From assembly GCF_000308815.1 (NCBI RefSeq), contig NZ_BAFX01000108.1, positions 1-64,000 of the forward strand: DNA of 64,000 nucleotides. Direction: 5' to 3'. The notes below the pieces were generated by a model. It was not told where the DNA came from. It made no database searches and saw nothing but the letters and a program-made list of their open reading frames with translations. The translations under genes were made by a program, and so were the position numbers. This document shows, in pieces, positions 30,658 to 38,295 of the stretch (position 1 is the first letter of the stretch; each line of letters begins with the position of its first letter). This DNA is from Nocardia concava NBRC 100430. GTDB taxonomy: Bacteria > Actinomycetota > Actinomycetes > Mycobacteriales > Mycobacteriaceae.

Positions 30658-31014
30658 TCATACACCCTTGTCCAAGCCGCCGCTTTCCGGCATACCAGGT
30701 ACCCGGCCGAGGAACGCGGTACCGACTTTGCACCATCCGTGCGGCGTGGTGGTGACAACTCCGATTTCACGAGGTGTGGAGACCGACCCGGCGTTCCATG
30801 GACCCCATGCGAATAGAGCGACGACAACACCGAGCAAGGCCACGGCCACACCCACCCAGGTGGCGGTGAGGGTGGCCCGGAAACGACGGCCATCGAAGTC
30901 ATCTCGCGCTGGTTCGCCGGTGGGTGTCAAGAAGGCTTCCGGTGTCACTGATCCGCTGATGTAGAACTGGATCGCGACAGGAGCGGTGAGCGAGTGCTTG
31001 GATTCGACGGTCAT
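30658..31014 (-). CDS. Small membrane protein, possibly truncated
   Basis: 118 residues from ATG 31014 with GGAGGACA six bases upstream, a strong site. It has a polar N-terminal half, one hydrophobic helix 'ATWVGVAVALLGVVVALFAWGPW' (about residues 50-72), and a short outer part ending 'MPESGGLDKGV'. No family recognised. The frame stops where coding-like sequence continues in other frames, so the protein may be shortened by a frameshift. Confidence 0.5.
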   Translation of the reverse strand: MTVESKHSLTAPVAIQFYISGSVTPEAFLTPTGEPARDDFDGRRFRATLTATWVGVAVALLGVVVALFAWGPWNAGSVSTPREIGVVTTTPHGWCKVGTAFLGRVPGMPESGGLDKGV

Positions 31015-31204
31015 TGTGTCCTCCGAAGTGGTGTTTAACATAACCACCGTGCGCAATCTCGAGTGCAACCGTAAGAGACCGCTGACAACTTCAGACCACC
31101 GTGGACACCTCTGTACAAGATTCGAACCACATCAGACGTGATGCGATCGTCAAGGCATCCAACCGATCCCACAATCGATACACTGAAAACAGTCAGCCGT
31201 AGCT

Positions 31205-32170
31205 GTGATTGGCGTTGCCGTGAGACCTCGAATCGTTGTGATCGGTGCGACGTACCTCGACATGTGCTTCCAGATAGCAGGGGCGCCTGCCGAATCCGAG
31301 ATTCTCGTGGCCCAGCGGTCGGCGTTGATGGCCGGCGGCAAAGGGTTCAATCAAGCAGTCGCAGCGAAGCGACTCAATACCGACGTCAAGTTCATCACCT
31401 CGATGGCGAATGATCCCGCCTCCGAGCTCGCTATTGCCACGCTGCTCGCCGAGGGATTTGCCGCATCCGACCTGTATGTCGAGCTACAGCATGGACGAGC
31501 GCTTACCCCGAGCGTCATCTTGACCAGCGGCAACGACGTCCGAGGCGTCATCGGCCCCGCGCACACCATGCCTACGGCACCATTGACCGCGCTCCAACAC
31601 GCATATCGTGAAATCGCGCGGGCGGACGTGGTTCTACTGACCTACGACTTCGGCAAACAGATGCTTCGAGCCGTCATCGACGCACTCGCCGCGGCACGCG
31701 GAAAACCACTGTTCATCGTGAATCCAGCACCGATCTTCGCGAATGCAGAATGGACGGCCGACCGGTTGACGTGCATCGACTGGCTGGTTCCCAATCGAGG
31801 GGAAGCTGAGCTGATTGTGCCCGGTACCCTAGACATCGGTCAGCGCGCACGCGAACTCGCGATCGCGATCTCCGGAAGTGTTTGCGTCACACTGGGATCC
31901 GACGGCTACATGTATGCGGCGAACACTCCACCATCCGACCAACGGCTGCCCGTCGTACATCGAGCATTCGAGGTCGACGTGGTGGACACCACTGGTGCGA
32001 GCGATGCATTTTGCGCCGCCCTCGCGGTGTGGCTGGCTGAGGGCAACACGCCACCCGATGCGCTGCGGGCGGCCGCGGCCGCCGGAGCCTTGGCCGCGAG
32101 GACGCTGGGAACGTCCTCGTCCATGCCCCGGCGAGCCAACCTGGAGACGTTCTTGCGGCGTCACCGATGA
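31205..32170 (+). CDS. PfkB-family (ribokinase-like) sugar/nucleoside kinase
   Basis: 321 residues from GTG 31205; a second in-frame GTG at 31220 ('MRPRIVVIGATYLDM') is equally plausible. Ribokinase-type motif 'GGKGFNQAVAAKRLN' at about 44, and the C-terminal ATP/anion-hole motif 'DTTGASDAFCAALAVWL', with catalytic Asp267. Phosphorylates a sugar or nucleoside; the substrate is not predictable. Convergent with the M24-like gene 33 bp away. Sequence is less GC-biased than the flanking core, in keeping with an accessory cluster. Confidence 0.88.
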   Translation: MIGVAVRPRIVVIGATYLDMCFQIAGAPAESEILVAQRSALMAGGKGFNQAVAAKRLNTDVKFITSMANDPASELAIATLLAEGFAASDLYVELQHGRALTPSVILTSGNDVRGVIGPAHTMPTAPLTALQHAYREIARADVVLLTYDFGKQMLRAVIDALAAARGKPLFIVNPAPIFANAEWTADRLTCIDWLVPNRGEAELIVPGTLDIGQRARELAIAISGSVCVTLGSDGYMYAANTPPSDQRLPVVHRAFEVDVVDTTGASDAFCAALAVWLAEGNTPPDALRAAAAAGALAARTLGTSSSMPRRANLETFLRRHR

Positions 32171-32203
32171 TCCGGGCACAACGGTCCTACGACGCGATCT
32201 CCT

Positions 32204-33046
32204 TCATCGGGCACCGAGGTCGCGGATCAATCCGAGCTCGGCGAGCAATTGCTCGCCTTCGCGCAGCACCGTCACTGTTCCCGCCCGAACCGAGACCACG
32301 TAATGAAAACTTACCTTGGGGGACTCCGGTCGCTCAGGGTCAACCAACTGGGGCTCGACCGTGAACTGAAAGGTATCCGACAACGGCCAGTTCGAGCTGG
32401 TTCCCACGAATCTACGGGAAGCGCGCATCGAGTCCTTGGCCCATTGCGGCAATACCCTACTTTCGGCCACGGCCTCCACTTCGACACTCGGCATTGAATG
32501 ACCCAAATCGAGCGGGACCGAATCCGTCACGCTGGCAATAGTATTGCGGAGCCCGACGGCGTCGAAGAGCTTCTCCGAATGCTGGAACAAAGCCGTCGAT
32601 GTCATGCTCGAATCAATACCTGCCAACAAGTCTTGGGTCACGGCACTGCATTTGCGGAAGTACTCGATCATGTCGGAGTTGGTGCCGAAATACAGTGTGA
32701 CCCCGAAGTCTCCGGCCAGCCCGGTCTGCCGGTCGACCGGAGAACAATACCCGTACATGAGTCCGCGCTCCCAATCGATGACACGATTACTCGGCCCGAA
32801 CGCCTCCAGCCTCAGAGACTCGAAACACACGCGCCTGACATCAATCTCATCCGCAAACAACACCGCCATCCCTTCGGCAGGTGGGTCGTACCACCCGTTC
32901 GTTGTCAGTCGCTCGTCAGCGTGGAGCCGAGCGCGCCACGCATCCCGAAAGCCGATCTCTGTGACACCCGATTGCCCACGCAGTTCGTTCAATGTTTCGG
33001 AGAATGTCCGATACGCCACTGATCGACCGTAATTATTCACTTCCAT
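32204..33046 (-). CDS. M24 (Xaa-Pro aminopeptidase fold)-like protein
   Basis: 280 residues from ATG 33046 with GGAAGG five bases upstream. No strong overall match, but the order of pieces resembles creatinase/aminopeptidase-P folds: 'GLMYGYCSPVDRQTG', a helix 'MIEYFRKCSAVTQDLLAGIDSSMTSTALFQHSEKLF', 'PLDLGHSMPSVEV' (candidate metal His), and 'TFQFTVEPQLVDPERPESPKVSFHYVVSVRAGTVTVLREGEQLLAEL', like the C-terminal 'EP' metal-ligand block. Several metal ligands cannot be placed, so it may be inactive. Third gene of the minus-strand ATPase - radical SAM - M24-like run. Confidence 0.5.
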   Translation of the reverse strand: MEVNNYGRSVAYRTFSETLNELRGQSGVTEIGFRDAWRARLHADERLTTNGWYDPPAEGMAVLFADEIDVRRVCFESLRLEAFGPSNRVIDWERGLMYGYCSPVDRQTGLAGDFGVTLYFGTNSDMIEYFRKCSAVTQDLLAGIDSSMTSTALFQHSEKLFDAVGLRNTIASVTDSVPLDLGHSMPSVEVEAVAESRVLPQWAKDSMRASRRFVGTSSNWPLSDTFQFTVEPQLVDPERPESPKVSFHYVVSVRAGTVTVLREGEQLLAELGLIRDLGAR

Positions 33047-33085
33047 GATTCCCTTCCGCCTCAACTTGTTCTTTACCATTAAGTC

Positions 33086-33949
33086 TCACCTTCGCTCGCC
33101 CGAGCCGTGCTGCCTCAACCAGCCAATAGCTGGACCACTGCGCATGAACATCGGTAGATTGTTTTTCTCACAGACCCGGCGAATCACGGATTCTATGTCA
33201 GACCCTTCGAAGACACGCCATGTTGCGGTGTTGCCGTCGAAGGGCATCGGCGCGAGTACGTAAGGAATATCGCGTTCGGACGTCGGACCCATCACTCCGC
33301 GCTCTAGATCTCCACCCTGGTCGAAGTACCAGACCCCGCCCAATACGATCTCCGCACCCCCTACCGACCGCTGGACGAGGTCGATGTAGTCCGCTTCCGG
33401 CACATTTGGCAAAAAAGGCCGAAGAGCCAGGATCGTCCGTATCCCGATGCCTCGTAGCACTCGCAATTGCTCTAAACGAATGTCCGGAGTTGGGATCGGT
33501 GGAGGTTCCAGATGAGGCACCGAAAGCTGGCACATACTTATACAACCTATAAGCATGTGTCCGCCCCGCGCTAGCTCCGCCGCCAGTTTCGCCAATTCCT
33601 CCACTGATGCGGCAGTCAGCCTAGCACGGGTGGTGAACAGCAGATCGACATCGAATTCCACCAGCCTGCGAAGAAGCTCTACCGCCTGCGCTTGCCGAGG
33701 CGGTGCGAACGAATCCGTATCACAACTGACATAGATGACATCATAATTGGACTCGACTGCAGCCACCCAATCGATTATCTCCCCAATACTCAGTGATGGG
33801 TATGACAAGAACTCTCCGCCGACATAGCAGAATGGACAGCTGTACGTGCAGTGTTTTCGCGAAGTAAGTGGACCTAGTGACAGCATCAGACGACCATCGC
33901 GTGCATCGAAGGGCATATCGAGCGAACGTTGGCTTATTTCTCGTGACAT
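33086..33949 (-). CDS. Radical SAM protein
   Basis: 287 residues. The cluster motif C34-x3-C38-x2-C41 in 'KHCTYSCPFCYVGGEF' binds the [4Fe-4S] that cleaves S-adenosylmethionine. 'DVIYVSCDTDSFAPPRQAQAVELLRRLVEFDVDLLFTTRARL' resembles COG1533/SplB-like radical SAM proteins. No SPASM or B12 domain; no further cysteine cluster is obvious. It lies 45 bp downstream of the STAND ATPase and 39 bp upstream of the M24-like gene, so the three are probably co-transcribed. Confidence 0.85.
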   Translation of the reverse strand: MSREISQRSLDMPFDARDGRLMLSLGPLTSRKHCTYSCPFCYVGGEFLSYPSLSIGEIIDWVAAVESNYDVIYVSCDTDSFAPPRQAQAVELLRRLVEFDVDLLFTTRARLTAASVEELAKLAAELARGGHMLIGCISMCQLSVPHLEPPPIPTPDIRLEQLRVLRGIGIRTILALRPFLPNVPEADYIDLVQRSVGGAEIVLGGVWYFDQGGDLERGVMGPTSERDIPYVLAPMPFDGNTATWRVFEGSDIESVIRRVCEKNNLPMFMRSGPAIGWLRQHGSGERR

Positions 33950-33994
33950 GTGAATTCTCTTTTCAGGCGCACAGCGCCTGCCTCGCCATAGCTT

Positions 33995-36394
33995 TCATGA
34001 GATGTCCGCCGCCCAGAAACCTTCGAAGCGAACCAGCCAGTCATTCCATTGAGTTCGATAAGAATCGTCAGCAGAGACCTCTTTGAGAGCGCCGAGCAGT
34101 GTTCGCATTTCCGCCGGAAATCGGGCAGACGCACCGTGATACTGAGAAACCCAAGCAATCTCCTTCGCTATCGCTTCAGTGAAGGTTCCGACGCGGTCGT
34201 GCAGACTGCCGATGGCTGCTGCTGAGCCTGGGGGGTCGGCACGAGCCGCATACTCGGCCACCGAGCGCGCGGCTCCCCACCGCACCCAGGGATACGGATC
34301 GTCGTCCAAGGCCGCCAGCAGGCAACGCAACACGTCCGGCCCGTCACCGGCAGCCAGCGCGTGCACGATGCGCCAGCGAATCGATGCACTCAGATCGGGT
34401 CCCTGACCTGCGTTTATCATCAGCCCTTCGTAGGCCCCAACCAGACGCTGCGACACTCGATCCGGCAATGGCGATCGTTTCAGTACGTACGACAGCGTCC
34501 AGCCGAGCAAAGTGTCGGCATCGTAGAGCACCTCGAGTTCAGCCGGAGACCACTCAGCGCCGTCGTTTCTGGCAAAAATCGCCGCCCACCGATCGAACCA
34601 TCCGTCCGAGGAAATACCAGCTAGTCTTCGGCACAGATGCTGACGTGCGGCCGAGCCGGGGACATCAGCCAGTTCGTGGGATATCTTGTCTGGCAGTTGC
34701 CCTAGCAGTCGACGGGCACGCTGCCGGGTTCCGTCCACTGGATCGCCGAGCCGCTCGCACAATAGGCCGATGACCGCGAGCCGTGCGGGCATCGAGAACG
34801 GCCCGTCGTGCGGGTCGGTAGCAGCCAAGCATTCAACCGCCGCACGCCAATTCCAGTCGTACACTGCCCGGATGTAGCGATCCCCGACTATGAACCCGCC
34901 CATCTGCTGAGCGGCCAGCGTGATCACATCGAAGTTCTCGCCGTCGGCACTCAACCCATCGAACAACCAGCGTTCGCCGGAAAAGGACAGGGTATCGAGT
35001 TCGGCAGACTGCCAACGGGTTCCCGCGCTCGCCAGCTCCAACGATGCCAGATAGTCACCGAACAGTTCGTGTGAAAAGTACAGATTGGCGGGATTCTGCG
35101 GGTCCGCGCTGAGGACGCCGGCGTCGAGCAGCGCCGACGCGACCCCTTCGGTGAGATTCGCGCGGGCGATCCATCGTGAACCCGACCGATACGCACCAAC
35201 CGTCGCCGTCGTTGCGACGGCGACGGCCTCGGCCGACATCATCACCTGGTTGGAGAAGAAGTCCCGAAGCGCCGCCGCGCGCGAGGAACTGCGCGGATCA
35301 GTACCCATCGACGACAGATTCAAGAAGAACGGCGAGCTCAACAATCTGCGCGACGCAGTGTCAAGGCAGTTCCAGGTGTCTGCTCCGAAACGACGGTCGA
35401 TCACTGCGGCCGCAACATCCTCTCCAACGTCCAATACTCGGGCGACGTGCCACTTACCGTGGCGCGGGTACCTTTCCAAACTGCGGTCGGTTACAACCGC
35501 AGTGACGTTCGGGAGGTTACGCAGTACTGCGTCAACAACATCGAGCACGCGCCGAGCGAGAAGACCCGAGGCGGAATTGAGACTGTCGATGGCGAGCACT
35601 ACTGGCTGCGCCTGTGCCTGGTTCTCGAATTGCGCACCGGAAATATCCTTCGTCGCGCCTTCGAGCAAGATGTCCAGGGCGAGTCGCCAATCGCGTCGCG
35701 GCTGATCGAAGTCGATGGCGAGCAGGCGGTCGCCCACCTCGGTCACCCATCCTGGACGGCCGATGAACGCGATCATCGCCGCTGGAGGCCCCTGCAGCAT
35801 ATTGACAGCCATTGTCGTCTTGCCCGCTCCGGCGCGGCCGTTGATCACGACGCGACGCAAAGCCCTGAGCTGCCTGGACATCTGCTCGGCTGTGAAAATG
35901 GCGCCATCGAGCTCAACCCTGATGGCGTAATCGTCTGCGAGCTGTTTTGGCTCCCAGACAGTGCCGACCACCTCATCCGGCGCCCGTGACCCTGCCAGCG
36001 GTGCTGTAGGGCTGAGCGCGCTGACGACCGAATGGTGGCCAGTCTCAACGGAATCGGACGATGCCTCGACCGGGTAACCGCCCTCGGCGAGTATCCACGG
36101 ATTCACGGTCTGGCCAAGTTTGAAGGCCGACCGCATCACCTCGTCGAACGGTCGCCACCGACTCGGATCGCCTCCACACCATTGGACGATGCTGGCAACC
36201 GTCGCGATCGTCGGCAGCACCGTGCCTTGAAGTGCGGCATAGTAAGTCGCCTTTGAAAGATGCGATGCCCTGTACGGCTCCCTGACAGCAACTTTGCCAG
36301 TCTTGAGCAAGAGCTGCTCGAGCTGATAGGCGTATTCACGCGCAGGCGATCCGTCTTGGACCAGAAGACCCGTGCGCCGCACCGCATCCCCCAA
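33995..36394 (-). CDS. STAND-type ATPase with N-terminal helix-turn-helix and helical repeats
   Basis: 799 residues from TTG 36394; GTG 36382, with GGGGG five bases upstream, is an alternative. Residues 15-80 look like an Xre-type HTH ('YRASHLSKATYYAALQGTVLPTIATVASIVQWCGGDPSRW'). Then a P-loop NTPase: Walker A 'GRAGAGKTT' (186-194), Walker B 'VVLAID' (265-270), a sensor-like 'VTAVVTDRS' and a winged-helix-like 'FSHELFGDYLASLELA'. The last 300 residues are helical, HEAT-like ('CLLAALDDDPYPWVRWGAARSVAEYAA'). This is the layout of signal-transduction ATPases used as sensors in immunity and regulation. First gene of the cluster. Confidence 0.8.
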   Translation of the reverse strand: MGDAVRRTGLLVQDGSPAREYAYQLEQLLLKTGKVAVREPYRASHLSKATYYAALQGTVLPTIATVASIVQWCGGDPSRWRPFDEVMRSAFKLGQTVNPWILAEGGYPVEASSDSVETGHHSVVSALSPTAPLAGSRAPDEVVGTVWEPKQLADDYAIRVELDGAIFTAEQMSRQLRALRRVVINGRAGAGKTTMAVNMLQGPPAAMIAFIGRPGWVTEVGDRLLAIDFDQPRRDWRLALDILLEGATKDISGAQFENQAQAQPVVLAIDSLNSASGLLARRVLDVVDAVLRNLPNVTAVVTDRSLERYPRHGKWHVARVLDVGEDVAAAVIDRRFGADTWNCLDTASRRLLSSPFFLNLSSMGTDPRSSSRAAALRDFFSNQVMMSAEAVAVATTATVGAYRSGSRWIARANLTEGVASALLDAGVLSADPQNPANLYFSHELFGDYLASLELASAGTRWQSAELDTLSFSGERWLFDGLSADGENFDVITLAAQQMGGFIVGDRYIRAVYDWNWRAAVECLAATDPHDGPFSMPARLAVIGLLCERLGDPVDGTRQRARRLLGQLPDKISHELADVPGSAARQHLCRRLAGISSDGWFDRWAAIFARNDGAEWSPAELEVLYDADTLLGWTLSYVLKRSPLPDRVSQRLVGAYEGLMINAGQGPDLSASIRWRIVHALAAGDGPDVLRCLLAALDDDPYPWVRWGAARSVAEYAARADPPGSAAAIGSLHDRVGTFTEAIAKEIAWVSQYHGASARFPAEMRTLLGALKEVSADDSYRTQWNDWLVRFEGFWAADIS

Positions 36395-36599
36395 CGCACT
36401 TCACCGATACATCGACAACGTCTGCAGAGTTCCCTCGGGACCAGCCGACGTCGGTATCGATGTTCAGTCTAGAACACGGGGACCTCTCCAGACGATGCTC
36501 CGACCTCAACCGCGAGGACGCCGTGAGACCCACTGAACAAGCAAGGCGGCCTACCGTCCCCGGCGTCATTCGGACACCAGTTCGGGTAAACCGCCTTAG

Positions 36600-36969
36600 T
36601 GGAGCTGCCGGGAATCGAACCCGGGTCCTCCGCCGCATTTCCAGGGCTTCTCCGTGTGCAGTTCGCTATGCCTCTGCTCGGATCTCTCGGTCACGCGAAC
36701 AAGCCGAGATGACGATCCCAGTCGCTGTTGGATGTCCCGTCCGACGCCGCGACCGCGTCGGACGGTAGAGCCCTCTAGCTGATGCCAGGGACCGGGTCGA
36801 GGGCGAACCCGGACTGACAGACACGCTTCGTTGCTTAGGCAGCGAGAGCGTAGTCGCGCTGATGAGAATCGGCGCTTATAGGGTTACAGCGACGCTTATA
36901 CGGTGGTCTCCTGCCTGCACCGACACGCTTCCCCTGAATCAACGTACGCAGTCGAAACCGTTCAGCCCC
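36600..36969 (-). ncRNA. ssrA: tmRNA (transfer-messenger RNA)
   Basis: The 5' end GGGGCTGAACGG (36969 downward) and the 3' end, with T-arm GGGTTCGATTCCC and AGCTCCA, pair as the tRNA-like domain; CCA is not encoded. The tag frame reads ADSHQRDYALAA followed by TAA, near 36880-36840, the known mycobacterial-type degradation tag. Length about 370 nt. smpB, its protein partner, lies upstream on the same strand. Confidence 0.95.
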
Positions 36970-37085: not shown

Positions 37086-37562
37086 TCAGCCGCGCATCCC
37101 CTTGATGCGGCGGCCGAGCTCGCGGGTGACCTCGCGTTCGGCGTCGCGCCGGGCCAGGTCCTGGCGCTTGTCGTAGTCCTGCTTGCCCTTGGCGAGGGCC
37201 AGCTCGACCTTGACCTTGCCGTCGGAGAAGTACATCGACAGCGGGACCAGCGTCAGGCTCGACTCCTTGGTCTTGCCCAGCAGCTTGTCGATCTCGCGGC
37301 GATGCAGCAGCAACTTGCGGGTGCGGCGCGGCGCGTGGTTGGTCCAGGTGCCGTGCCCGTACTCCGGGACGTGCAGGCCACGCAGCCACACCTCGCCGTC
37401 GTCGATGGAGGCGTAGGCGTCGACCAGCGACGCCTTGCCCTCACGCAGGCTCTTCACCTCGGTACCGACCAGCGCGACCCCGGCTTCGAACGTCTCCAGG
37501 ATGGAGTAGTTGTGCCGTGCCTTCTTGTTGCTGGCGATGACCTTGCGGCCCTTCTCCTTCAT
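37086..37562 (-). CDS. smpB: SsrA-binding protein SmpB
   Basis: 158 residues from ATG 37562 ('[51 protein letters not shown]'), the full SmpB N terminus; longer in-frame sequence is not conserved in style. C-terminal tail '[31 protein letters not shown]' is the basic helix that enters the decoding centre. Binds tmRNA and rescues stalled ribosomes. ssrA follows 116 bp downstream. Confidence 0.97.
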
Positions 37563-37617
37563 AACGGTCAACTGTAATTGCCCCGGCCAATCATTTATTC
37601 CGGGGCGTTCCGCGGGG

Positions 37618-38295
37618 CTACTCGCCGACATCACGCGACTGTGTGGCATCGAGCACGACCTTGGTGCCCGGGGTCGCGGCGACCTGCAGGGTGCGCAGGC
37701 GCAGCAGGGCCGGGTTGTCGGTCAGCAGCTTGGCGGTGTTGGCCAGCGAGCGCAGGGCGGCGGCCTCGGCGCGGGCCCGCTCGAGCTCGGCGCGGCCGCG
37801 CTCGCGGGCCAGGACCGTCTCCAAGGCGGCCCGGCGGAGTTCGCCCGGGAGCATGAGGTCCTTGGCGCGCACGGTGTCGACGCGGATGCCGAGGTGTTCG
37901 ACCTGCGCGGCGACCGCCTGCTTGCCGGTGCCGAGCAGACCGCGGTCGGCGATCAGCTCGTCGAGGGTGTGCGCGGCCACCAGATCGCGGGCGACCTCCT
38001 GGACCGCGCCGTAGAGGACGGTCTCGGCGTACTGCGCACCGGTGGTGAACGCGACCGGATCGGTGACGACCCAATCGGCGGCGAAGCTCACGCGCAGCGA
38101 CAGGCCGTCGCTGGTCAGCAGTTCCTGGCCGCCGACCTGCAGCACGCGCGGGCGCATGTCGACGGTGACCAGCGTGCAGCGCTCGTCGTCGTAGCGGTGA
38201 CGGCCCGGCTCGAGCACCTCGGCCAGGACACCGTCGCGGAACAGCAGGGTGCGCTGCCAGTCCATGACAGTCGTGTAGGTCTTCGTGTTGAACAT
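37618..38295 (-). CDS. SPFH/Band 7 (slipin-like) protein
   Basis: 225 residues from ATG 38295 with AAGGAGA upstream. '[63 protein letters not shown]' is a Band 7 domain, followed by the coiled '[28 protein letters not shown]'. There is no N-terminal membrane helix, unlike most prohibitin/stomatin proteins, so it may associate peripherally or act in the cytoplasm. Role unknown; the 397 bp upstream holds only a terminator near tRNA-Glu. Confidence 0.85.

Follow-up and report, generated by a model that had tools for sequence, protein, structure and literature searches.

A rare radical SAM enzyme encoded beside a STAND-type ATPase in Nocardia concava suggests a possible conflict cassette

Results

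A GC-poor gene run next to ssrA

The genome of Nocardia concava NBRC 100430 carries, within the 64,000-nucleotide stretch analysed here (positions 1 to 64,000 of contig NZ_BAFX01000108.1; hereafter the window), a short run of genes for a STAND-type ATPase, a radical SAM (rSAM) enzyme, a 291-aa protein and a PfkB-type kinase (Table 1). A sequence-only reading had proposed that the four form one accessory system. We place the rSAM enzyme at the core of a proposed gene cassette. The idea that it and the STAND ATPase make up a single undescribed system gains support both from their adjacency in the window and from six of 13 loci that encode close relatives of the rSAM enzyme. The four-gene order stands, with all four frames open and intact at the coordinates checked, as do the 45-bp gap between the ATPase and rSAM genes and the 33-bp gap to the convergent kinase gene. 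The 39-bp gap reported between the rSAM gene and the 291-aa gene holds if the latter starts at its second ATG (33046), but shrinks to 6 bp from the first ATG.

Table 1. Genes of the accessory stretch and the adjacent ssrA gene (window coordinates)
Feature	Position	Strand	Remarks
STAND-type ATPase gene	33995-36394	minus	799 aa; open frame
Radical SAM (rSAM) gene	33086-33949	minus	287 aa; open frame, PF04055
291-aa gene (earlier label 'M24-like')	32204-33079	minus	open frame, no family match
PfkB/ribokinase-like kinase gene	31205-32170	plus, convergent	321 aa; PF00294
ssrA (tmRNA) gene	36599-36969	minus	ARAGORN; 3' end faces accessory stretch

The run sits between an aldo/keto reductase-like gene and the 3' end of ssrA. 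It is GC-poor (0.58-0.62 against about 0.67), and GC content at third codon positions is 0.58-0.70 in its genes versus 0.87-0.90 in the flanking genes, which we take from their sequence to encode an aldo/keto reductase and SmpB (37086-37649). Integration at ssrA that duplicated its 3' end was considered and rejected: allowing up to three mismatches, the window contains no second copy of 19 bases from near the ssrA 3' end, only short, probably chance repeats, so that it is place and composition only that suggest insertion at ssrA. The tmRNA gene itself, with the tag ADSHQRDYALAA, adjoins the smpB-like gene. Predicted promoters and terminators scored no higher than in shuffled sequence. To the left of the PfkB gene lies a GC-poor frame of 136 aa (30658-31068, minus strand), with a membrane-like segment discernible by eye, which may be part of the same accessory stretch. 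The window proteins matched no described anti-phage system model in PADLOC-DB 2.0.0; the only match, to PDC-S73 (E = 0.0075), spans 29 P-loop residues.

The radical SAM enzyme belongs to a rare family

Loci and genomes that encode rSAM relatives are referred to below by L and G numbers, respectively. The radical SAM identity of the window protein was confirmed by Pfam (Radical_SAM, PF04055; E = 1.2e-7, 32.5 bits against a cut-off of 29.5). Its CxxxCxxC cluster motif (C34, C38 and C41) is invariant in 13 aligned sequences that include the window protein, as is the motif DTDSFA. L056, where the rSAM frame is broken, counts as one of the 13 loci, although neither this alignment nor the trees include it; the alignment also omits the L039 and L045 sequences, which are divergent and which the rSAM tree retains.

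Structure prediction, which the sequence-only reading had called for, gave a confident AlphaFold model (pLDDT 91). The best Foldseek match is spore photoproduct lyase (SPL; 4fhc, E = 1.2e-6), at about 15% identity. Radical SAM enzymes also head the rows of a VIA-align comparison, where lipoyl synthase (Z 17.9, 227 residues, 3.2 Å), SPL (Z 16.6, 245 residues, 3.4 Å), PFL-activating enzyme, viperin (Z 15.9, 204 residues, 2.9 Å) and NifB lie close together (Z 17.9 to 15.8); SPL is not singled out, lipoyl synthase and viperin scoring similarly. On this predicted model, the nearest folds fix no substrate. The SPL match and the presence of viperin in the rows would suit an enzyme that makes an antiviral nucleotide in the manner of viperin, or acts on nucleic acid in the manner of SPL, with the STAND gene as a separate defence gene of the same island. 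We regard this alternative as quite unlikely. The SPL family model PF20903 is not listed for the window protein (Pfam, E ≤ 1), and even the distant L045 relative scores only E = 0.048 (13 bits against a cut-off of 27). Like the present enzyme, prokaryotic viperins are rSAM proteins in a context that resembles immunity, some copies having a nucleotide-kinase-like gene close by; the window protein differs in having no PADLOC family at E ≤ 1, a search in which the library's viperin models were not checked.

Judged by sequence comparison, this is a rare and distinct family, patchily distributed across phyla and horizontally spread. Among 99 relatives of N. concava (59 of the genus, itself included), the window rSAM occurs in its own genome only. 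A distant relative is encoded in G369 (1.9e-16), and nine other genomes gave ten weak matches in the same search (2e-5 to 7e-4, 24-33% identity), alongside many weaker ones. A profile of two sequences found family members in G581 (2e-68) and G732 (9e-41) among 394 genomes of the class, with a weak match in G568 (7e-4). Scanning 84,980 species genomes with patterns from the window and G581 proteins yielded 12 rSAM loci; this exact-pattern scan surely misses family members, and the E-values it gives refer only to the candidate stretches. The relatives span Acidobacteriota, Bacteroidota, Actinomycetota, Bacillota, Mycoplasmatota, Scatousia and Alphaproteobacteria. Wider sampling at E ≤ 1e-15 covered the phylum of G843 (119 genomes), the order of G581 (35) and the class of G847 (196), and in each set matched only the centre genome. 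Phyla are intermingled in the rSAM tree with starred support: Scatousia joins Bacteroidia and then Clostridia, and Flavobacteriaceae fall with a largely Bacillota group, a pattern that indicates horizontal transfer.

Relatives of the rSAM gene recur beside NACHT receptors and oxidoreductases

Besides the window, 13 loci belong to the close clade (L044 and L046-L057). Genes at the fetched loci were called as greedy longest open reading frames, a procedure that missed the rSAM gene of L046, which was added by hand. A Gfo/Idh/MocA oxidoreductase gene adjoins the rSAM gene or lies one gene away at nine of the 13 loci, and at six the rSAM cluster includes a NACHT receptor with an FGE-fold C-terminus, encoded next to the rSAM gene or with one gene between; a PfkB kinase is encoded at two (L044 and L046), once fused to TIR. 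With the window included, a STAND gene lies in the rSAM cluster at 7 of 14 loci. The six receptor loci come from the window's class, Acidobacteriota, Bacteroidota (two), Bacillota and Scatousia, which has no phylum in the NCBI taxonomy. A hidden Markov model (HMM) built from eight of the oxidoreductase genes matched nine of the 294 genes picked across 15 loci, and all nine adjoin the rSAM gene or sit one gene off (at L048, also past a spurious pick on the opposite strand). The lack of any other matching pick is an internal control against generic abundance of the oxidoreductase. A search of viral contigs (IMG/VR) with the oxidoreductase gave no match.

Gene order at several loci is compact. 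At L044, in genome G581 of the window's class, genes for a PfkB kinase, the rSAM enzyme, a NACHT-FGE receptor, a Gfo/Idh/MocA oxidoreductase and a PNPOx-like protein follow one another, the PfkB stop codon overlapping the rSAM start (TGATG). L047 has the order rSAM, TIR-NACHT-FGE receptor, Gfo/Idh/MocA; a caspase and two TIR or ThsB-like proteins are encoded about 4-6 kb off. L046 encodes the rSAM enzyme and a TIR-NACHT-FGE receptor and, on the other strand, a NUDIX-like protein (assigned by clustering), a guanylate-kinase-like protein and, 5.7 kb from the rSAM gene, the PfkB-TIR fusion, whose TIR is of the CAP12/Pycsar type. This fusion is one protein (L046:16522-18105, minus strand) and matches PDC-S35, a PADLOC candidate, in its C-terminal part. 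Three loci from Clostridia, Scatousia and Bacteroidia (L052, L053 and L054) share the order receptor, Gfo/Idh/MocA, rSAM; Pfam was run on the L052 receptor, and those of L053 and L054 were assigned by alignment. At two of these three loci, the receptor gene is preceded by a small gene in which a membrane-like segment can be made out by eye (L052:5705-6250 and L054:541-1008, homologous to each other). At L050, an AbiH gene overlaps the Gfo/Idh/MocA gene.

Other copies have different company. Between the rSAM and Gfo/Idh/MocA genes of an actinomycete (L048:10954-12300) and a member of the Lachnospiraceae (L050:10834-12201) lies a gene for a protein of 448/455 aa (33% identity) that has no Pfam family and may replace the STAND receptor at these loci; comparison with the window ATPase showed no link. 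The neighbours at L049, L051 and L057 encode FMN reductase, carbamoyltransferase, TIM-barrel, NUDIX or metallo-beta-lactamase proteins. About 0.4 kb before the L051 rSAM gene lies a metallo-beta-lactamase-fold gene (L051:8836-9552), whose product matches the anti-Pycsar protein Apyc1 below threshold (E = 3.2e-7; 30.5 bits, cut-off 50). Of the two distant relatives, one is the first gene of a run beside a transposase (L039:1415-3860) that includes a deoxynucleoside-kinase gene and a gene with a phosphoribosyltransferase-like motif by eye and no Pfam hit; the other follows a phosphoribosyl-ATP-pyrophosphohydrolase-like gene (L045:6297-10287), with a NUDIX gene nearby. Guanylate-kinase-like, NUDIX or deoxynucleoside-kinase genes near some rSAM copies are in line with the nucleotide-making alternative raised above.

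The receptors share a private FGE domain

The FGE domains of the six rSAM-linked receptors group as a single clade (100/100), and none of 500 label shuffles gave a value as low. For this tree, FGE segments were taken as the C-terminal 235 residues (L044, L046 and L047) or 300 residues (L052-L054) of the receptors, and the background came from 78 viral loci, of which 17 were dropped (no match, fewer than 190 aligned columns, or a stop) and 61 left, with 31 viral-contig domains kept for the tree after removal of near-copies. The motif GGCFDW is found in all six rSAM-linked domains and in none of the 61 background domains, 52 of which have RGG followed by S or G. Average mutual identity of the six is 50% (lowest pair 41%). 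Background domains, which were viral and plasmid, not chromosomal, reach 37.5% where at least 190 columns align, 42% in short segments from two viral contigs, and 36.8% in plasmid records (among the best 12 of 542). The FGE domain is also the most conserved region of the receptors, with a mean pairwise identity of 0.50 versus 0.36 for the middle region, 0.31 for NACHT and 0.18 for the N-terminus, and is comparable in this respect to the rSAM enzyme of the same loci (0.45). That the FGE domains fall in a single private clade speaks against the receptors being unrelated neighbours of a nucleotide-making rSAM enzyme.

Catalytic formylglycine enzymes have a cysteine pair shortly after RGGS. Since no such pair stands at that place in the motif, the FGE domain of the receptors would be a binder rather than an oxidase. 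The trees of FGE domains and rSAM enzymes agree in setting L052-L054 apart from the rest and in making L053 and L054 sisters, and on these sequences co-inheritance of rSAM enzyme and receptor appears supported.

A second alternative is that the rSAM enzyme is a protein maturase that modifies the receptor or a partner, for example a side chain of the FGE motif, and so arms or licenses it, with the oxidoreductase and kinase in ancillary roles. The rSAM and receptor genes are neighbours, the FGE motif with its invariant cysteine is seen only in rSAM-linked receptors, and SuiB and SkfB, which are peptide maturases, appear in the VIA-align rows together with PFL-activating enzyme with a peptide substrate. 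We nevertheless judge it unlikely: family members also occur at loci where no STAND gene is seen, with oxidoreductase, carbamoyltransferase or xylose-isomerase-like TIM-barrel genes nearby, the window receptor has no FGE domain, and Pfam (E ≤ 1) reports no SPASM-type extension for the 287-aa window rSAM.

The other genes of the window

The window ATPase has the Walker A motif GRAGAGKT and C-terminal HEAT repeats (HEAT_2, 27.8 bits against a cut-off of 27.7), with a NACHT match that falls below the Pfam cut-off (13.6 bits against 26.7, E = 0.059). This weak match is strengthened by a profile comparison with the NACHT-FGE receptors of related loci, to which residues 262-361 align (hhalign probability 71.8%, E = 3.5e-5), and the protein is probably a NACHT-type STAND protein. 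Of the earlier description as a STAND ATPase with a DNA-binding head, the P-loop and STAND part is thus probable; the helix-turn-helix head was not confirmed, no such family being listed by Pfam at E ≤ 1. Among 296 genomes of the phylum, a full-length relative is encoded in the organism's own genome only. Partial matches, ranging from 1.7e-4 to 5.2e-4, came from three other genomes within residues 11-90 (31-33% identity) and from one at residues 97-221; plasmid records contain no relative of the ATPase.

The PfkB assignment holds firmly (PF00294; E = 5.6e-30, 105 bits against a cut-off of 25.8), and the kinase has the anion-hole motif DTTGASDAF; against TIGR02152 it scores 155 bits, under the equivalog cut-off of 299.65. 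Its inclusion in the system draws weak support from the PfkB genes at L044 and L046 and is undercut by its belonging to another subfamily, and by sequence it is a possible member of the cassette.

The 291-aa protein fares differently. Peptidases of family M24 bind metal through five ligands, D, D, H, E and E, and the look-alikes in the 291-aa protein are short stretches picked out by eye (GDFG, LGHS and FTVEP). The M24 label failed four tests and is not supported: the protein has no Pfam or NCBIfam family at E ≤ 1, is not among five own-genome matches to PF00557 at E ≤ 10, aligns with the five M24 domains of the same genome at an hhalign probability of 0.3%, and was ranked 41st by an M24 HMM, behind 40 of 500 of its own shuffles. 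In the best hhalign pairing, which is not significant, GLAGDFGVTLYFG falls opposite GYHSDMTRTFVLG in a true M24 domain. The protein has no PDB sequence match at E ≤ 10, and the structure prediction that the sequence-only reading had asked for was useless (single-sequence AlphaFold model, pLDDT 33). A link to the oxidoreductase was likewise tried and rejected (hhalign probability 0.1%). Homologues are confined to the organism's own genome among 396 genomes of the phylum and 51 of the genus, plasmid records contain none, and the 15 other rSAM-bearing genomes gave weak matches in two (best E = 0.0098, with internal stops). By sequence, the 291-aa gene is at best a putative member of the cassette.

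These findings bear on a third alternative, that the window genes are a chance pile-up beside ssrA in which at most the rSAM and ATPase genes were acquired together, and which may be decaying. The 291-aa gene lacks a convincing homologue in any of the phylum, genus, plasmid and rSAM-bearing genome searches, the PfkB gene is convergent and of another subfamily, no Gfo/Idh/MocA gene was found beside the window genes and the FGE domain is missing. Set against this are the four intact frames, their short gaps and similarly low GC content, and the recurrence of the rSAM gene near STAND genes across the family; on balance we find a chance assembly somewhat improbable.

Discussion

We favour, at a little less than even confidence, the reading that the gene run is a variant form, perhaps in decay, of a mobile conflict cassette that is built on an rSAM enzyme and a STAND protein and is probably directed against phage. 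The TIR and NACHT receptors, together with the AbiH, caspase and ThsB-TIR genes near single copies, argue for a conflict role. Gfo/Idh/MocA, PfkB, PNPOx-like, NUDIX and guanylate-kinase-like families act mostly on sugars, nucleotides or cofactors. Such companion enzymes, combined with conflict-type receptors and genes, lead us to favour a cassette that makes and reads a ligand; its defence role, the ligand and the direction of sensing are what we infer. In the window, the rSAM gene lies next to a STAND gene, a call for which the Walker A motif and the hhalign alignment provide the support, and neither a Gfo/Idh/MocA gene nor an FGE domain was found, with no GFO_IDH_MocA match among the four window proteins (Pfam). 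The window is therefore a variant or remnant, with the receptor type swapped and no oxidoreductase found beside the rSAM gene. As far as tested, rSAM and STAND genes co-occur, and the 291-aa gene is missing from other genomes rather than occurring there independently.

Several observations weigh against the cassette. No rSAM relative was found in plasmid records (window and L047 queries), in phage records (window and L049 queries) or in viral contigs (IMG/VR), and neither the rSAM enzyme nor the oxidoreductase of L050 has a PADLOC family at E ≤ 1e-5. Seven of the 13 close loci have no visible NACHT-FGE receptor: L048 and L050 carry the 448/455-aa gene in its place, L049, L051 and L057 show no STAND gene among the genes examined, L055 ends at the rSAM gene and L056 is broken. 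The neighbourhoods of L049 and L057 look metabolic. The window receptor has no FGE domain (Pfam, four window proteins), and the gene picks at 28-39 kb of the window include nothing like Gfo/Idh/MocA, the rest of the genome not having been searched. The window PfkB is from another subfamily than those of L044 and L046 (best BLASTP E = 0.46), and the 291-aa gene has no counterpart at the relatives' loci. Finally, the FGE tree pairs L047 with L046 (93/82, not starred), but the rSAM tree puts it nearer L052-L054 and the Bacillota group (99/96), and co-inheritance is thus not perfect; this conflict also leaves room for some independence between rSAM enzyme and receptor, as the nucleotide-making alternative would have it.

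If the cassette reading is right, the rSAM enzyme, oxidoreductase and PfkB-type kinase might make a small sugar- or nucleotide-like ligand, and the conserved C-terminal domain of the receptor would sense that ligand or its disturbance during infection. The NTPase would then oligomerise, and the N-terminal effector, TIR in two of the six receptors, would act, for example on NAD+. In the window receptor, HEAT repeats take the place of the FGE domain and a possible DNA-binding head that of TIR, and the output could be gene regulation. At its boldest, this would be a bacterial NLR-type immunity with a self-made ligand, in which the product of the enzymes is read by a STAND receptor through its invariant FGE-fold domain and infection is sensed as a change in the cell's own metabolite, not through a phage protein; as a specific mechanism, we consider it possible but rather doubtful.

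Parts of the proposed cassette resemble known systems. NACHT or nSTAND proteins with FGE/C-type lectin (CLec) domains diversified by retroelements (DGRs) have been described (PMC10907252), and with these and the STAND/NACHT anti-phage receptors (Avs, bNACHT) the relatives' receptors share the STAND NTPase, an N-terminal TIR in some, and an FGE-type C-type-lectin C-terminus. They differ from the systems of that paper, as presented there, in that CLec is diversified by DGRs in the latter, whereas the FGE domain is the most conserved part here, and in their company, an rSAM enzyme and, in most cases, an oxidoreductase; the main text of that paper has no occurrence of 'radical SAM'. An rSAM effector proposed to modify a peptide effector has been placed in vWA/FtsH ternary conflict systems (PMC7159879), which are similar in having an rSAM enzyme within an NTPase-centred conflict system. 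As set out in that paper, those systems are vWA-MoxR/FtsH, and none of these families was reported for the rSAM neighbours scanned with Pfam, which were not all of the neighbours. A search of the open-access literature, with most subscription journals outside it, found no description of the rSAM-STAND-Gfo gene set.

The L044 and L047 operons are compact versions of the cassette that are open to testing. If the favoured reading is true, the coupling of an rSAM biosynthetic step to an NLR-like receptor would be a new trigger of STAND/TIR immunity, and a receptor most conserved in its presumed sensor domain would reverse the pattern usual for immune receptors. It would also point to a signalling or guard metabolite not yet known.

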